Shown here: in pieces, positions 57,999 to 64,000 of the stretch
Layout of the letters: the number at the start of each line of letters is the position of its first letter
Numbering within the stretch: the first letter of the stretch is position 1
NCBI RefSeq assembly: GCF_037976325.1
Contig: NZ_CP150265.1
Span: forward strand, 2,847,501-2,911,500
Direction: 5' to 3'
DNA length: 64,000 nt
DNA from: Paenibacillus sp. FSL K6-3182
GTDB taxonomy: Bacteria > Bacillota > Bacilli > Paenibacillales > Paenibacillaceae
Made by a program: the position numbers and the translations under genes
Notes under the pieces: model-generated
The model's database searches: none
What the model was told of the DNA's origin: nothing
The model's input: only the letters and a program-made list of their open reading frames with translations

Positions 57999-58542
57999 GC
58001 AAATGATCGAAAAAGTAAGAGCGGAAATGCCTGAGCGAAGATGGCTGCATACACAGGGAGTTATGGAAACCGCGGTCATATTAGCTAATAGGTTTGGCCA
58101 AGATGCTGTACGAGCTGAGCTTGCTGCCATTTTGCATGATGTTTCTAAGTACTGGAATGTCGATCGTATGCAGAAGGTCATACGCGATCAAGCATTGCCA
58201 GCAGAGCTTTTGCTTTATGATAAAGAATTATGGCATGCTCCTGTTGGGGCGTGGGTAGCCGAACATAAATTTGGTGTGGCGGACACCGAAGTGCTTGACG
58301 CTATTCGCTACCATACATCAGGTCGCCGCGGCATGTCGCAACTTGAGAAAATTGTTTGCCTTGCCGATTATATGGAACCAGGGCGAGAGTTTCCAGGAGT
58401 AGACAAAATTCGAGAGCTTAGCGAGCATTCATTGGATCAAGCATTGCTTGCTGGCTTTAACTCTACAATTTCCTTCTTATTAGAAAAAGGAAAACGAATA
58501 TTTCCGCTAACAATAGAAGCAAGAAATAGTTTATTAGAATAA
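57988..58542 (+). CDS. yqeK: YqeK HD-domain diadenosine tetraphosphatase
   Basis: HD-domain hydrolase of 184 residues; relatives split Ap4A into two ADP. Metal ligands are H in RWLHTQGVMETA (about 20), HD in AILHDVSKYW (about 49-50), H in LWHAPVGAW, H in IRYHTSGR and D in CLADYMEPGR. Ap4A control here fits its place beside nadD. It starts inside the end of nadD and is followed by rsfS at 21 bases. Confidence 0.94.
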   Translation: MNREQMIEKVRAEMPERRWLHTQGVMETAVILANRFGQDAVRAELAAILHDVSKYWNVDRMQKVIRDQALPAELLLYDKELWHAPVGAWVAEHKFGVADTEVLDAIRYHTSGRRGMSQLEKIVCLADYMEPGREFPGVDKIRELSEHSLDQALLAGFNSTISFLLEKGKRIFPLTIEARNSLLE

Positions 58543-58563
58543 TATTTAACAGGAGGCTGAGCT

Positions 58564-58911
58564 ATGGCGTTACATTCGGATCAATTGCTTCAAATCACAG
58601 TCGCAGCAGCAGAAGACAAAAAAGCGGTGCGCGTTGTTGCTTTGAACTTAAAAGAAATTTCCTTGGTGGCGGATTACTTCGTCATTTGCAGCGGTAACTC
58701 GGATACTCAAGTACAAGCTATCGCAACAGAAATTCGTAAACAAGCTGAGAAAAATGGCAATCGCGTGCGTGGAATCGAAGGTATGGATTCGGCAAGATGG
58801 GTGCTGATTGACCTCGGCGACGTTATCGTTCACGTATTCCATCGCGATGAGCGTGAATATTACAACATTGAGCGGCTATGGTCCGATGCGAAGGTTGTGG
58901 AGTTTGCATGA
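58564..58911 (+). CDS. rsfS: Ribosomal silencing factor RsfS
   Basis: Protein of 115 residues that binds ribosomal protein uL14 and blocks subunit joining when nutrients are short. Marks: DYFVICSGNSDTQVQAIATEI (about 36-56), GMDSARWVLIDLGDVIVHVFH (about 71-92) and the ending REYYNIERLWSDA. AGGAGG before the ATG is strong. Its stop overlaps the next start (ATGA). Confidence 0.96.
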   Translation: MALHSDQLLQITVAAAEDKKAVRVVALNLKEISLVADYFVICSGNSDTQVQAIATEIRKQAEKNGNRVRGIEGMDSARWVLIDLGDVIVHVFHRDEREYYNIERLWSDAKVVEFA

Positions 58912-59864
58912 GTTTTGTAGCCGGAACAACTTTGACTTTAAGGGTGGCACGCGAGGTGTCGCCCTACGGCTATTTTTTGAGCGATGAAGAATCGGATGTG
59001 CTCATGCATTATACCGAGCTTGTAGGCTCTAAGCCAAAAATCGGCGATGCAGTGGAAGTATTCATTTTTTACGATTCCGAGGATCGATTGGCTGCTACGA
59101 TGAAGAAGCCGCTTCTCCAACTAGGTGAGCTTGCTCGCCTGAAAGTAGCGGACGTTCATCCAAGGCTTGGCTGCTTCCTAGAAATGGGGCTTGGCAGACA
59201 ATTGCTGCTTCCGCTATCGGAGCTGCCGGAGAGTATTGAATACAGACCTCTTCCTGGCGATGAAGTATTTGTTGTGATGAAGCATGACAAAATAGGAAGA
59301 CTTGTAGCGAAAATTGCTTTTGAAGAGGAACTCTCGGAGCTTGTCTTCCATGCACCTGAGAGCTGGAATAATCAATGGGTCGAAGGCTGGGTAACTAAAA
59401 CGCTGCAGCTCGGCTCATTCGTTATGATTGATGGCGGCGTTGTAGGGTTTGGCGTTTATGGGCTTATTCCAAGCGCAGAACGAATCCGTCCGCTTAGACT
59501 TGGTGAGCGTGTAAGCGCTCGTGTTACTTTCATTCGTGAGGATGGCAGAGCAAACCTCTCCATGGCGCAGCGTAAGGAAGTAGGACGTTTGGAGGATGCT
59601 GATCGACTGCTTGCCTTCATTAAAGAACGACCAGGCGGCGGAATGCCTTACTCTGATCAGACAGATGCCGACATTATTAAACAAAAATTCGGGATTAGCA
59701 AAGGCGCCTTCAAACGCGCTTTAGGCAAGCTGATGAGAGAAAGGCTTGTCACTCAGAAAGGCAGCTGGACATATTTGGCTGAACCGTCTGATGCGACGAC
59801 GGAGCAAGCAGGAGAGCAAGCGAACGCTTCAGGCTCCTCAGCTGAAGGAGCTGACGGGCAATGA
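58908..59864 (+). CDS. CvfB/YitL-like S1 RNA-binding protein
   Basis: Protein of 318 residues with S1-type beta barrels (about 5-60, 68-130 and 150-225; FVMIDGGVVGFGVYGLIPSAER, RVSARVTFIREDGRANLSMAQRK) and a C-terminal winged helix (about 245-295: IIKQKFGISKGAFKRALGKL), the layout of CvfB/YitL. CvfB of Staphylococcus binds RNA and affects virulence gene expression. The end is a low-complexity acidic tail. ATG at 58908 overlaps the rsfS stop; the frame from 58878 only extends into rsfS. In Bacillus, yitL is elsewhere. Confidence 0.9.
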   Translation: MSFVAGTTLTLRVAREVSPYGYFLSDEESDVLMHYTELVGSKPKIGDAVEVFIFYDSEDRLAATMKKPLLQLGELARLKVADVHPRLGCFLEMGLGRQLLLPLSELPESIEYRPLPGDEVFVVMKHDKIGRLVAKIAFEEELSELVFHAPESWNNQWVEGWVTKTLQLGSFVMIDGGVVGFGVYGLIPSAERIRPLRLGERVSARVTFIREDGRANLSMAQRKEVGRLEDADRLLAFIKERPGGGMPYSDQTDADIIKQKFGISKGAFKRALGKLMRERLVTQKGSWTYLAEPSDATTEQAGEQANASGSSAEGADGQ

Positions 59865-60628
59865 CACGCTCTTATGGACAGTTCGCTACTGTCTATGATC
59901 AGCTGATGGAGGATATGCCCTATGCAGAATGGCTGGGCTTCGCAAGGGCCGGCTGGTCGCGCTATGGCATGCCTGCTACTGTCGTAGATCTTGGTTGCGG
60001 TACAGGGAGCATCTCGATTCCGTTAGCACGCTCGGGTTTCCATGTGTATGGAATCGATTTGTCATCGGACATGCTTACCGTCGCGCGCAGCAAGTGGGAT
60101 GAGACGCCTCAGGCTGTTACGAGACCGCGCTCCGGTTCGATTCGGTGGCTGCAACAGGACATGCGTGAATGGGAGCTGCAAGAGCCCGTTGATGCGGTCA
60201 TTTCGTTTTGTGATTGTTTGAACTACTTGACGGAGGAAGAGGATATTGAGGCGGCTTTCCGCGCTACCTATGCTGGCCTTCGCAGCGGCGGTTCCTTTTT
60301 ATTCGATATGCATCCGCCAAAGCAGCTCATTCGTTATGCGGAAGAACAGCCCTTTGTGCTTGATGAGCGTGATGTAGCCTATATATGGACATGCGACTTT
60401 GAAGAGGAGCGCTGCGAGATTGAGCATAACCTAACGATATTCTCGCGTGACCGCGATTCAAAGTTTTATCGATTTGAAGAATCACATGTGCAGCGCGCTT
60501 ACGATCCAGACTGGATCGAGTCAGCTCTGTACCGTGCGGGCTTTAAAACGGTTGACCGTTACGCAGATTTTGAGCTGAAGCCAGCTGACAGCGAGTCAGA
60601 GCGTTTGTTCTTCGCAGCAATCAAATAA
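59861..60628 (+). CDS. yqeM: Class I SAM-dependent methyltransferase (YqeM-like)
   Basis: Methyltransferase of 255 residues. Motif I is VVDLGCGTGSISIPLA (about 43-58), motif II YGIDLSSDML, and motif post-I DAVISFCDCLNYL. It carries the YqeM start SYGQFATVYDQLMEDMPYAEW and the WTCDFEEERCEIEHNLTIFSRD segment. The substrate is unknown. It overlaps the preceding gene (ATGA) and ends the ribosome-assembly cluster, as yqeM does in Bacillus. Confidence 0.92.
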   Translation: MTRSYGQFATVYDQLMEDMPYAEWLGFARAGWSRYGMPATVVDLGCGTGSISIPLARSGFHVYGIDLSSDMLTVARSKWDETPQAVTRPRSGSIRWLQQDMREWELQEPVDAVISFCDCLNYLTEEEDIEAAFRATYAGLRSGGSFLFDMHPPKQLIRYAEEQPFVLDERDVAYIWTCDFEEERCEIEHNLTIFSRDRDSKFYRFEESHVQRAYDPDWIESALYRAGFKTVDRYADFELKPADSESERLFFAAIK

Positions 60629-60645
60629 TATGATCCACTAGAGAT

Positions 60646-60691
60646 GGGTGTCTCATAGAGTCTAACTAGACTTTATGGGAAACCCTTTTTT
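60646..60691 (+). terminator. Terminator of the yqe cluster
   Basis: An imperfect stem (GGGT/ACCC, CATA/TATG, AGTCT/AGACT) between 60646 and 60685 is followed by six T. Confidence 0.75.
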
Positions 60692-60739
60692 GATCTGTCC
60701 GGCCATTCGCAGAAAACGCCGCTTTAAAAGAGACGACAA

Positions 60740-61695
60740 TAGGAGACTATGGTGCGTTAGTACCTATACGTGCTTACAGAGTGGAATCGTCATGAGAGTA
60801 CGCTCGAAAGTGCGCTGTAAGAACACATATGCGCTTATAGAGGAAAAGCAACCATGGTTTGTGGTGGTTAAGCACACATATGTGCTTAATGAGTGGAATC
60901 GTCATGAGAGTAAGCTCGAAAGTGCGCTGTAAGAACACATATGCGCTTATAGAGTAAAAGCAACCATGGTTTGTGGTGGTTAAGCACACATATGTGCTTA
61001 ATGAGTGGAATCGTCGTGAGATCACGCTCGAAAGTTCGCTGTAAGAACAAATATGCGCTTATAAGGGAAAAGTAACTCTGATTCGTGATCTGTAAGAACA
61101 CATACGTGCTTACAGAGTGGGATCGTGGTGAGAGTATGCTCGAAAGTTCGCTGTAAGAACACATATGCGCTTATAGAGGAAAAGCAACCCTGGTTTGTGG
61201 TGGTTAAGCACACATATGTGCTTAATGAGTGGAATCGTGGTGAGAGTATGCTCGAAAGTTCACTGTAAGAACAAATATGCGCTTATAGAGGAAAAGCAAC
61301 CCTGGTTTGTGGTGGTTAAGCACACATATGTGCTTAATGAGTGGAATCGTCGTGAGAGTACGCTCGAAAGTTCGCTGTAAGAACACATATGCGCTTATAG
61401 GGGAAAAGTAACTCTGGTTTGTGGTCTGTAAGCACACATATGTGCTTAATGAGTGGAATCGTCGTGAGAGTACGCTCGAAAGTTCGCTGTAAGAACACAT
61501 ATGCGCTTATAGAGGAAAAGCAACCCTGGTTTGTGGTGGTTAAGCACACATATGTGCTTAATGAGTGGAATCGCCGTGAGATCACGCTCGAAAGTTCGCT
61601 GTAAGAACAAATATGCGCTTGTAGAGGAAAAGCAACCCTGGTTTGTGGTGGTTGTGCACACATATGTGCTTAAAGAGTAGGATCGAAGTATGAGT
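60740..61695. repeat. Tandem array of an exact 112-bp unit, about 8.5 copies
   Basis: The marker GTGGAATCG (with small changes) begins at 60781, 60893, 61005, 61117, 61229, 61341, 61453, 61565 and 61677, always 112 bases apart. A partial unit precedes the first (about 60740-60780) and one trails the last. Each unit holds two palindromic elements: TAAGAACACATATGCGCTTA (for example 60818-60837) and TAAGCACACATATGTGCTTA (60869-60888), the second with a perfect 8-bp stem and CATA loop. They alternate at 51 and 61 bases, so the unit is itself an old dimer. Units differ by few substitutions and no indels. As 112 is not a multiple of 3, the array is not coding. Confidence 0.95.
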
Positions 61696-61702
61696 TGGTC
61701 TG

Positions 61703-61754
61703 TATAGATGTCGATTGCAATGTCGAAGTAGAAACATTGCAATCGACATCTATA
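61703..61754. other. Perfect 21-bp-stem hairpin with 10-base loop
   Basis: Bases 61703-61723 (TATAGATGTCGATTGC then AATGT) are the exact complement of 61734-61754, with loop CGAAGTAGAA. No T run follows on either side, so it is not an ordinary terminator. It directly borders the 112-bp array. It may be a structured RNA, a recombination or protein-binding site, or a remnant of a small mobile element. Confidence 0.85.
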
Positions 61755-61894
61755 TCTAGTGTGAGTGTCGAATTTTGACGAAAAATATTCTGATTGTAAA
61801 ATTTTATCAACAGCGTTTTGGTGAACGAGAAGTGCTATCGATTTCTTGAATTATTCGCTTGTATATATCTAGATCTTGTGACTCGTATATCATG

Positions 61895-62128
61895 TTATTC
61901 CCGAAGCGCATCTTTTAATCGGCTGTTCATGCCTGCGGAAGCAGACGCTTTTCGTATCGATTCAAGCTTCATTTTCTTGATTGTTTCGGCCATTAGATCT
62001 TGATCTTTTTCAAGTTTTTCGATGTATTCAAGCAGCTCCGGCACTGTATATCCGGCATCTTTGAACAGTTTTTCTAGCAATGCTCTTGTTTGTTCTGCAG
62101 TTGTGTTTACGATTTTCAGGACCCCCAA
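61895..62128 (-). CDS. Small helical hypothetical protein (uncertain, possible fragment)
   Basis: A frame of up to 77 residues, not recognised. It is highly charged and predicted helical with a likely coiled coil (VPELLEYIEKLEKDQDLMAETIKKMKLESIRKA, about 29-61) and ends in SAGMNSRLKDALRE. The composition is protein-like and the codons look normal, but the start is poor: TTG at 62128 has no ribosome site, and the GGGGG motif lies just inside the frame. It may be a decayed or truncated gene, or start internally. The 130 bases between the 21-bp hairpin and its stop show nothing else. Confidence 0.4.
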   Translation of the reverse strand: MGVLKIVNTTAEQTRALLEKLFKDAGYTVPELLEYIEKLEKDQDLMAETIKKMKLESIRKASASAGMNSRLKDALRE

Positions 62129-62224
62129 AATAGCAATAAAATGTCACTATCACATCATATCCTCATCTGTTAAAATAGTCGAGTGCGCCAAAAAAATAGA
62201 TTAATATTTTCTCCATAATTTTCA

Positions 62225-62253
62225 TTGACTACTCCTATATATTGATGTAGAAT
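62225..62253 (+). promoter_or_regulatory. nrdI: SigA-type promoter of nrdI-nrdE
   Basis: TTGACT (62225-62230), a 17-base spacer and TAGAAT (62248-62253) make a good SigA promoter 140 bases before nrdI. Confidence 0.65.
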
Positions 62254-62279
62254 CAAAAACATCAACTACATATTGATGT
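62235..62279 (+). promoter_or_regulatory. Pair of NrdR boxes
   Basis: CTATATATTGATGT (62235-62248) and CTACATATTGATGT (62266-62279) are near-identical and start 31 bases apart, three helical turns, as is usual for paired NrdR boxes. The first sits between the -35 and -10 and the second just past the start site, so NrdR-dATP would block transcription of nrdI-nrdE. Confidence 0.75.
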
Positions 62280-62393
62280 GGATTGGTGCCTTCAACGATT
62301 ACCAGCGGTATATCTTGAACAAGCGCAGCTGACGGAATTGCTAGTCAGAAGCGCTTTTTAATTGCTTGATTACAGTAAGGGAGCGAACGTGTT

Positions 62394-62753
62394 ATGCTAG
62401 TCGTCTATGATTCCAAAACAGGCAACGTCAAGCGTTTCATCAAAAAATTGAATATGCGGGCGGTGCCGATTGATGAGAGGGAAGAAGTTGACGAGCCGTT
62501 CGTGCTAGTAACATACACAACAGGGTTCGGCCAAGTTCCAGAGAAGGTAACTTCGTTTCTAGAAAGCAACTCTGGCATGCTCCGCGGCGTTTCTGCGAGC
62601 GGCAACCGCAACTGGGGAACCGGGTTCGCAAAAAGCGCGGATACGATCTCACAAATGTACGATGTTCCAGTGATTTTGAAGTTTGAATTGTCAGGTACGA
62701 ATCAAGATACGCAACATTTTGTCGAAAGGGTGCGAACCATTGAAGCATATTGA
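62394..62753 (+). CDS. nrdI: Ribonucleotide reductase flavodoxin NrdI
   Basis: Flavodoxin-like protein of 119 residues that supplies oxidant to assemble the dimanganese-tyrosyl cofactor of NrdF. FMN loops are YDSKTGNVKRF (residues 5-15), TYTTGFGQVP (about 42-51) and ASGNRNWGTGFAKSA (about 71-85). It starts with ATG at 62394 after AAGGGAGCG. It overlaps nrdE by 14 bases. The class Ib arrangement and NrdR boxes show it serves aerobic deoxyribonucleotide synthesis. Confidence 0.95.
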   Translation: MLVVYDSKTGNVKRFIKKLNMRAVPIDEREEVDEPFVLVTYTTGFGQVPEKVTSFLESNSGMLRGVSASGNRNWGTGFAKSADTISQMYDVPVILKFELSGTNQDTQHFVERVRTIEAY

Positions 62754-64000
62754 ATTGAATAACGAATTGATGCAGCGCGGTGCAGACGGATTTTACCAGC
62801 TTGATAAAGATAAAGAGGCTGTCGCTGCATTTATGGAAGAAGTGGCTGAGAAGAGCGTGAAGTTCGACTCCCTCAAACATAAGCTAGAATACTTAATCGA
62901 AAACGATTATTACGATAATGTATACGAAAAGTATACATATGAGCAGGTTGAAGCTGTATTTACACTAACGGCAAACAGCGGCTTTGAATTCCAATCCTAC
63001 ATGGCAGCATCGAAGTTCTATAAGGACTACGCGATGAAGACCAACAACAAATCGCAATACTTGGAGCAATATTCCGATCGTGTAGCCATCGTTGCCTTGC
63101 ATTTGGGCGAAGGCGATGCAGCTAGAGCACTTCGAATTGCGGAAGCGATGATTGACCAACGTTTGCAGCCAGCTACCCCTACCTTCCTCAACGCAGGCAA
63201 GAGCCGCCGCGGAGAAATGGTTTCCTGCTTCCTGCTAGAAATGGACGACTCTCTTAACTCCATCAACTATGTACTCGGCACATGTATGCAGCTCTCCAAA
63301 ATCGGTGGTGGCGTAGCCGTCAACCTATCGAAGCTTCGTGGACGCGGTGAGCCTATTAAAGGCGTAGAAGGCGCAGCAAAAGGCATTATGCCGGTGCTGA
63401 AGCTTATGGAGGATGCTTTCTCCTACGCAGACCAAATGGGACAACGCAAAGGTTCTGGTGCAGGCTACTACAATATTTTCGGCTGGGATATTATCGAATT
63501 CCTTGATTGCAAAAAAATTAACGCAGACGAAAAAGCACGTATTAAAACTCTTTCGATCGGCCTAATTATTCCGAATAAATTTTATGAGCTAGCTGCTCAA
63601 AACAAACCGCTATTCGTGTTTGGTCCACATTCCGTTCAGAAGGCATACGGCAAGCATCTCGACGATATGGATATGGACGAGATGTACGAAGAGCTGCTGG
63701 CTAATGAGCTGGTAACGAAGAAAAAAGTAATGAACGCACGCGACATGTTGACAAAAATCGCTTCGATTCAACTAGAATCTGGCTACCCATATATTATGAA
63801 CAAATCGAATGCTAACAGCGTTCACGCTTTGAAGGATATCGGCTCTATCAAAATGTCCAACCTGTGCACAGAAATATTCCAGCTTCAGGAGACATCGGAA
63901 ATTAAGGATTACGGCTACGAGGATGTCATTAACCGTGATATTAGCTGCAACCTTGCTTCCCTTAATATTGTTAACGTAATGGAGCACAAAAAGGTGAAGG
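62740..64000 (+). CDS. nrdE: Class Ib ribonucleotide reductase large subunit NrdE (3' end outside window)
   Basis: The first 420 codons of NrdE, which reduces ribonucleoside diphosphates; about 700 are expected, so the gene leaves the window. It starts with TTG at 62740 inside nrdI, about 8 bases after GAAAGGG (62724-62730), giving MKHIELNNELMQRGADGF. Marks: QPATPTFLNAGKSRRGEMVSCFLLE and GGGVAVNLSKLRGRGEPI. Active-site cysteines are C163 (VSCF), C376 (SNLCTEIF, radical) and C403 (ISCNLASLN), each 12-15 positions from C178, C388 and C415 of the Salmonella enzyme. There is no N-terminal ATP-cone, as usual in class Ib. Confidence 0.96.
   Translation, partial: MKHIELNNELMQRGADGFYQLDKDKEAVAAFMEEVAEKSVKFDSLKHKLEYLIENDYYDNVYEKYTYEQVEAVFTLTANSGFEFQSYMAASKFYKDYAMKTNNKSQYLEQYSDRVAIVALHLGEGDAARALRIAEAMIDQRLQPATPTFLNAGKSRRGEMVSCFLLEMDDSLNSINYVLGTCMQLSKIGGGVAVNLSKLRGRGEPIKGVEGAAKGIMPVLKLMEDAFSYADQMGQRKGSGAGYYNIFGWDIIEFLDCKKINADEKARIKTLSIGLIIPNKFYELAAQNKPLFVFGPHSVQKAYGKHLDDMDMDEMYEELLANELVTKKKVMNARDMLTKIASIQLESGYPYIMNKSNANSVHALKDIGSIKMSNLCTEIFQLQETSEIKDYGYEDVINRDISCNLASLNIVNVMEHKKVK

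Follow-up and report, generated by a model that had tools for sequence, protein, structure and literature searches.

Tandem palindrome arrays dispersed in Paenibacillus and their association with genes for a nuclease-like protein

A 64-kb stretch of the Paenibacillus sp. FSL K6-3182 chromosome (the window, meaning all 64,000 nucleotides analyzed) contains a single tandem array of palindromes with the ends TAAG and CTTA, which lies between a methyltransferase gene and nrdI. Such arrays form a family that is dispersed in the genome of this strain (G000) and its relatives, occupies orthologous positions across species, changes in copy number, varies in palindrome class by genome and is associated with genes for a nuclease-like protein. 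Of the gene copies examined, about one in two lies close to a tandem array, usually with the array on the 3' side, and the palindrome varies from copy to copy.

Palindrome array in the window

The array and its borders consist of the following features.

60757..61672, no strand: tandem array of 17 palindromes TAAG-N12-CTTA, two of them decayed at the ends; unit 112 bp, 61/51-bp alternation
60818..60837, + strand: type A palindrome TAAGAACACATATGCGCTTA, first intact copy (palindrome listing)
60869..60888, + strand: type B palindrome TAAGCACACATATGTGCTTA, first intact copy (palindrome listing)
60838..60868, + strand: 31-bp spacer, first copy; carries motif GGAAAAGCAAC, which other arrays have in AAAAGTAAC-like form (sequence, array comparison)
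60889..60929, + strand: 41-bp spacer with motifs GTGGAATC and CTCGAAAGT (sequence, array comparison)
60757..60776, + strand: decayed left-end palindrome TTAGTACCTATACGTGCTTA; L048, of the same species, has this palindrome at its left end too
61653..61672, + strand: decayed right-end palindrome TGTGCACACATATGTGCTTA
60646..60691, + strand: terminator-like hairpin and T run, 3' of the methyltransferase gene, at the left border of the array region (sequence, fold)
59861..60628, + strand: upstream gene, class I methyltransferase (PF13649)
62394..62753, + strand: downstream gene nrdI (PF07972)

An earlier note, made from the letters of the window, had described a 112-bp array without indels, and this array is real: Tandem Repeats Finder places it at 60766-61685 with a period of 112, 8.2 copies, 90% match and 0% indel, and the spacings between its 17 sites run 61,51 eight times with no slip. 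The type A register continues at 60930, 61042, 61154, 61266, 61378, 61490 and 61602, some copies carrying one or two changes, and the type B register continues at 60981, 61093, 61205, 61317, 61429, 61541 and 61653, some copies being changed; exact copies number six for TAAGCACACATATGTGCTTA and five for TAAGAACACATATGCGCTTA. The alternation of two palindromes per unit at 51 and 61 bp is thus as exact as the note had it, but the end palindromes are decayed and the second type, B, is imperfectly symmetric. The palindrome cores, described there as the best kept part, indeed vary in 3 of 40 columns over seven full units; among spacer columns the count is 23 of 72 (Fisher p 0.004), and the 16 TAAG/CTTA columns are all constant. 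The exclusion of clustered regularly interspaced short palindromic repeats (CRISPR) also holds, because the spacers recur every 112 bp and are not unique.

Dispersal of the array family

Searched against the 7.56-Mb G000 chromosome, the initial 161 bases of the array region give 64 matches. A search for the palindrome elsewhere in the genome, as the note had proposed, finds 193 occurrences of the strict form TAAGMRCNNATNNGYKCTTA and none of a reversed control pattern, so the window palindromes are not chance sequences. G000 has at least 14 arrays, mostly intergenic and at the 3' ends of genes, which are each fairly homogeneous internally and differ from one another in core and spacer. Pairs of TAAG-N12-CTTA palindromes at a distance of 51 bp are present in 24 of 147 genomes, a set that includes G000, and the reversed control in none. 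The genomes richest in such pairs are G011 (144), G000 (92), G044 (75), G115 (65), G108 (50), G047 (46) and G022 (39). A pattern scan by named organism gave at least 120 matches, and those listed fall mainly in Paenibacillus and its relatives; the listed matches outside Paenibacillaceae, one per place (three in Alkalibacterium kapii) and mostly asymmetric, were treated as chance.

The anatomy of the arrays was surveyed in 97 arrays with 744 palindromes under 32 labels, a few genomes standing under two labels. Spacings of 51 (349 cases), 61-62 (209), 111-113 (44, each with a missed middle palindrome) and 50 or 52 bp (23) were found, together with a single one of 72 and a small number of other values, among them 39, 48, 49, 53, 59 and 60. 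The spacings step by about one helical turn; the 51-bp spacing is imposed by the search pattern, and only 61-62 and 72 are free evidence of the step. In P. pasadenensis the spacing is essentially 51 only (73 of 80), the remainder being 50, 52, 153 and 164. L001-L008, L021, L022, L024, L028, L034-L036 and L038 were dropped from the survey as repeats of other loci, and a few of the loci kept may still duplicate a named genome. The Cohnella repeat (L100) is counted there, and its asymmetric core may make it a non-member.

Among 70 arrays with at least three palindromes and both flanking open reading frames (ORFs) seen, 28 lie between convergent, 36 between tandem and 6 between divergent genes; 16 more arrays are cut off on one side, and five loci fall inside a longer ORF of the simple caller used. 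Pfam searches with 22 of the 26 ORFs flanking 13 arrays of G000 found AraC-type regulators beside L010, L015 and L019 and solute-binding proteins beside L011 and L017, the remaining genes being unlike each other. The AraC and ABC genes were set aside, since they belong to large families and lie at varied distances.

Array sites across species

Comparison of flanks reveals array sites that are orthologous between species. The window site carries an array in G000, FSL A5-0031, FJAT-28004 and P. paridis, and a site beside ftsZ is common to seven genomes, with flank pieces about 66-97% identical. The core halves at the ftsZ site are CGC and AAC in G000, GTAC in NEAU-GSW1 and GCT-like in P. lupini. 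Because these cores differ between genomes, the array evidently persists while its palindrome changes and stays near-symmetric. The core class varies by genome, and the spacers follow the locus.

Within the genus, 50 of 51 genomes have a match to the gene upstream of the window array, and 30 loci were examined over 1.5 kb past this gene. Four of them carry the array, with 8.2 copies in G000, 5.2 in G147 of the same species, 6.3 in G044 and several in G047. A single palindrome between array-like flanks is present in G026, a remnant of the spacer but no palindrome in G042, and a palindrome of another type in G024. A 123-bp array of a different palindrome family, AATAGAGCTAGAAACTAGCTCTATT, lies at this site in G020 (L274), as if the site were permissive for arrays in general. 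No TAAG palindrome array was seen within the same 1.5 kb at the other 22 loci, one of which (G019) has a 37-bp tandem repeat.

Nuclease-like protein encoded beside the arrays

The ftsZ-side array, 190 kb from the window array, abuts a gene for a 230-residue protein (P0001).

G000:C1:3101335-3102024: nuclease-like gene copy beside ftsZ, 230 residues

When ORFs near arrays were clustered by similarity, members of this family turned up next to arrays at L012/L061 and at L052, two loci unrelated to each other. Two bigger clusters near arrays (18 and 16 ORFs, whose members match AraC-type regulators and ABC ATPases in Pfam) were set aside, their distances being varied.

The protein is predicted to consist of a Vsr/EDxHD-type nuclease domain and a C-terminal winged helix. 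P0001 matches Pfam weakly, as MTES_1575, and its scores stand under the curated cut-offs (25.1 versus 38.2 bits for MTES_1575; 16.5 versus 20.6 bits for DUF559); each of the two profiles matches 36 of 45 family members. Residues E58, D72, E85 and H92 are invariant in the 45 members and may correspond to the active site of I-Bth0305I. NCBIfam and a single-sequence PDB search gave no useful match, and a PDB profile search returned mostly winged-helix proteins. Since the winged helix also dominated the structure search with the whole model, the N-terminal part was modelled alone; its best Foldseek match has an E-value of 0.1, and Vsr itself is absent among the best 50 matches listed. None of six members matches a PADLOC anti-phage defence model.

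Protein searches find the family in 122 of the 147 Paenibacillales genomes, often in multiple copies, seven of them in G000. It is rare outside Paenibacillales: in a phylum sample of 398 genomes 13 match, of which five belong to the own family (own genome included), and among the other eight only G272 has a full-length match. Phage records contain no member, and plasmid records one, in a 2.7-Mb Paenibacillus record. G272, a genome of 1.6 Mb from another family, carries its full-length homologue (L298) near no more than a weak 69-bp repeat, and either transfer or contamination may account for the gene. In other families of the phylum, L303, L305-L309 and L313 carry the nuclease-like domain within open frames of 754-858 residues, and no tandem repeat of period 30 or more is present in the stretches examined there.

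Gene–array association

The association was counted at 77 gene loci picked by protein similarity (the 30 best matches, the next 14, six further G000 copies and 27 from five array-rich genomes, with L238 and L239 left out as repeats of L163 and L175), inspected over 1.5 kb on each side where the contig allows, an array being a tandem repeat with a period of 40-130. Tandem arrays lie at 36 of the 77 loci (16/30, 7/20 and 13/27), 28 of them 3' and 8 of them 5' of the gene. Nine genomes supplied the controls, 100 windows of 3.64 kb cut from 20 stretches, and 5 of these windows have one (Fisher 3e-11). Arrays with a perfect palindrome arm of at least 7 bp occur at 19 of the 77 loci and in one of the 100 controls, which is itself a TAAG array. 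The periods are mostly similar across gene copies (51, 61-62, 73-74, 112-113 and 123-125 bp), additional ones being 41-43, 70, 87, 92, 101-106 and 114-115.

The palindromes differ between gene copies, as in CTGTAGCGTG..CACGCTACAG (period 51), TAGTCGGAG..CTCCGACTA (51), GCAACGATG..CATCGTTGC (113), AATAACGCT..AGCGTTATT (112) and TAAGCGCG..CGCGCTTA (51/101). In three genomes (L186, L188 and L190) the nuclease gene has a lone palindrome TAGAGGAAGT..ACTTCCTCTA in its vicinity, possibly what is left of an array.

Some gene-side arrays have copies at other intergenic sites. In four genomes outside the window clade, the best match of the dispersed arrays by half-site similarity is the array beside the gene of that genome itself: P. 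sinopodophylli (one array), NEAU (six), P. lupini (two) and, narrowly, P. glycanilyticus (two; 0.47 versus 0.45 for the next). The NEAU arrays resemble the array of gene B (0.54-0.71) and not that of gene A (0.23-0.33). The window clade comprises G000, FSL A5-0031, FJAT-28004 and P. paridis, and within it a genome's own gene-side array and those of the other clade members score alike (0.56-0.69); the own gene-side array is not top-scoring for the dispersed arrays of G000, the clade genomes being indistinguishable. A second array family of G000, with a 123-bp period, stands beside another nuclease copy (1.298 Mb; L199:3319-3957); dispersed arrays of this family lie at 2.400 and 6.370 Mb, and short matches to it at 6.098, 3.868 and 7.206 Mb. 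Dispersal of the array of another G000 nuclease copy was not found.

Proposed mechanism and alternative explanations

The window array is probably, as we infer in part, a dispersed member of a nuclease-plus-palindrome system that resembles repetitive extragenic palindromic (REP) sequences with their REP-associated tyrosine transposases (RAYTs), the enzyme being an unrelated nuclease. On this reading, the TAAG arrays of G000 would belong to the ftsZ-side gene copy. The winged helix would read half-sites (TAAGMRC here), and molecules on neighbouring palindromes may cooperate across about five or six helical turns. A step of 51-62 bp is plausible because dimers of I-Bth0305I act on a target of nearly 60 bp, according to the part of a review consulted (PMC3943268). 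The nuclease would nick or cut at the palindromes, and recombinational repair could expand and homogenize the arrays and occasionally seed them elsewhere. A stronger version, which we put forward tentatively as a serious possibility falling just short of probable, is a satellite-DNA drive in bacteria, in which each nuclease cuts its own helically phased array, repair amplifies, homogenizes and reseeds it, and specificity and core co-evolve. Several observations weigh against the gene–array link: 41 of the 77 gene loci have no array, 17 of the 36 gene-linked arrays have no clear palindrome by the 7-bp arm test, and the gene loci are partly orthologous, L261 and L266 being halves of one copy.

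The main alternative holds that the arrays are binding sites useful to the host in chromosome organization, supercoiling or 3'-end insulation, bound by the nuclease-like or another protein, with cutting irrelevant. The helically stepped spacing, the rarity of divergent gene settings (6 of 70) and the persistence of orthologous arrays despite core change all suit it. However, most relatives lack the window array, the 51-bp TAAG pair is patchily distributed (24 of 147 genomes), and the nuclease domain keeps its acidic and His residues invariant, for which a pure binder would have no need; we regard this explanation as unlikely, though the strongest of the rivals. A phased protein-binding array had been offered in the earlier note and fits best among its readings, judged by the stepped spacings and by the independent half-sites described below; the nuclease-linked dispersed family lay beyond that reader's view. 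Its variable-number tandem repeat (VNTR) is borne out as a description by the 8.2 and 5.2 copies in two genomes of one species. As a full explanation, a passive VNTR arising by slippage and unequal crossing-over of duplicated sequence without a partner protein would account for those differences, for the 6.3 copies of G044, and for the lone palindrome and remnant spacer of G026 and G042. It is doubtful at best, since it leaves unexplained the same palindrome class and spacing at at least 14 loci, core classes that change by genome with spacers that change by locus, palindromes better kept than spacers, and the association with a single gene family.

A repeated RNA hairpin, processed or stabilizing, would agree with the foldability of every palindrome and with cores that differ by genome yet stay symmetric; such symmetry is expected for a dimer site as well. 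In the G000 clade, the half-sites AAC, CAC and CGC combine freely (equal halves in 53 of 185 distinct palindromes, 58.6 expected), and position 5 pairs in 77, below the 94 expected. A hairpin would give an excess of pairing, the opposite of what is observed, and is rejected for this clade. Covariation of the stem, a check the earlier note had suggested, is thus absent in the clade, but an excess at position 5 exists in P. pasadenensis (20 observed versus 11.7 expected), and in that lineage a hairpin may still apply. The RNA fold of the unit is ordinary (z -1.4), and cmscan of 58000-64000 at E<=1 found no Rfam match in the array, its only two rows, both from one miRNA family, lying outside the array far below the gathering score. 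An RNA explanation, as the note had allowed, is therefore very improbable. Least credible of all is a classical family of REPs or bacterial interspersed mosaic elements (BIMEs) moved by a RAYT. Paired palindromes, two alternating spacers and intergenic dispersal recall it, similar traits being listed in the portion consulted of a RAYT paper (PMC2817692), but PF01797 (Y1 transposase) has no match in G000, the control being positive in 5 of 14 genomes.

Relation to known systems

The preferred nuclease-plus-palindrome reading has its nearest counterpart in the REP/BIME-RAYT system (REPtron). Both have dispersed intergenic palindromes with alternating spacers (here 193 sites, 51/61) and, next to the gene of the enzyme, palindromes cognate to it; RAYTs and REPs co-evolve, and at orthologous rayt genes the REPs differ but keep their palindromic form, as the sections seen of that paper report (PMC2817692). 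Unlike a RAYT, an HUH tyrosine transposase, the enzyme here is a predicted Vsr/EDxHD-type nuclease with a winged helix. The present arrays are long tandem ones with a 51/62-bp step, mostly on one side of the gene, and have the ends TAAG/CTTA, whereas REPs carry a GTAG or CGTC tag at one end, as stated in the excerpt consulted (PMC3733652). EDxHD (Vsr-like) homing endonucleases such as I-Bth0305I may share the catalytic fold predicted here and likewise have a separate DNA-binding part; the present family, however, is absent from phage records, and its gene stands beside arrays of presumed sites and not inside one site. MTES_1575 has the Vsr restriction endonuclease fold (PMC3710099, in part), in line with the profile matches above, but the protein here stands alone with 230 residues and an array, and the part of that paper seen does not mention a link to repeats. 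In P. vortex 231 tandem repeats have been counted, and the part consulted of that report does not describe palindrome arrays of the present kind (PMC3012674).

The association suggests a nuclease paired with bacterial satellite DNA, so far undescribed; a limited search of the open-access literature turned up no report in which nucleases of the DUF559/MTES_1575 type are connected with palindrome arrays. Beside the known RAYT/REP pairs, another class of enzyme that pairs with palindromes and is unrelated to the first would be a case of convergence, would offer a tractable bacterial model for the concerted evolution of satellite arrays, and would hint at what the unnamed nuclease-like family of Paenibacillales does. 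The reading predicts DNA sites and is thus directly testable. If true, the satellite-DNA drive would mean that the strategy of REP and RAYT had arisen a second time, independently, and would give homing and centromeric satellites a counterpart in prokaryotes. Eukaryotic alpha satellite consists of homogenized tandem arrays with the protein-binding CENP-B box in alternating monomers; the likeness is an analogy only, the present arrays being bacterial, short and located between genes.

Other features near the array

Directly 3' of the array, 61704-61753 forms a long near-perfect inverted repeat, ATAGATGTCGATTGCAATGT...ACATTGCAATCGACATCTAT, whose counterpart in G044 (L108) is decayed. A 77-residue ORF at 61895-62128 on the - strand has no Pfam match and may be a real small gene, because the DNA around it is 82-86% conserved in G042, G026 and G012. 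Upstream of nrdI, two TATTGATGT elements at 62236-62281, present also in the relatives compared, resemble the paired boxes of a regulator, possibly NrdR.
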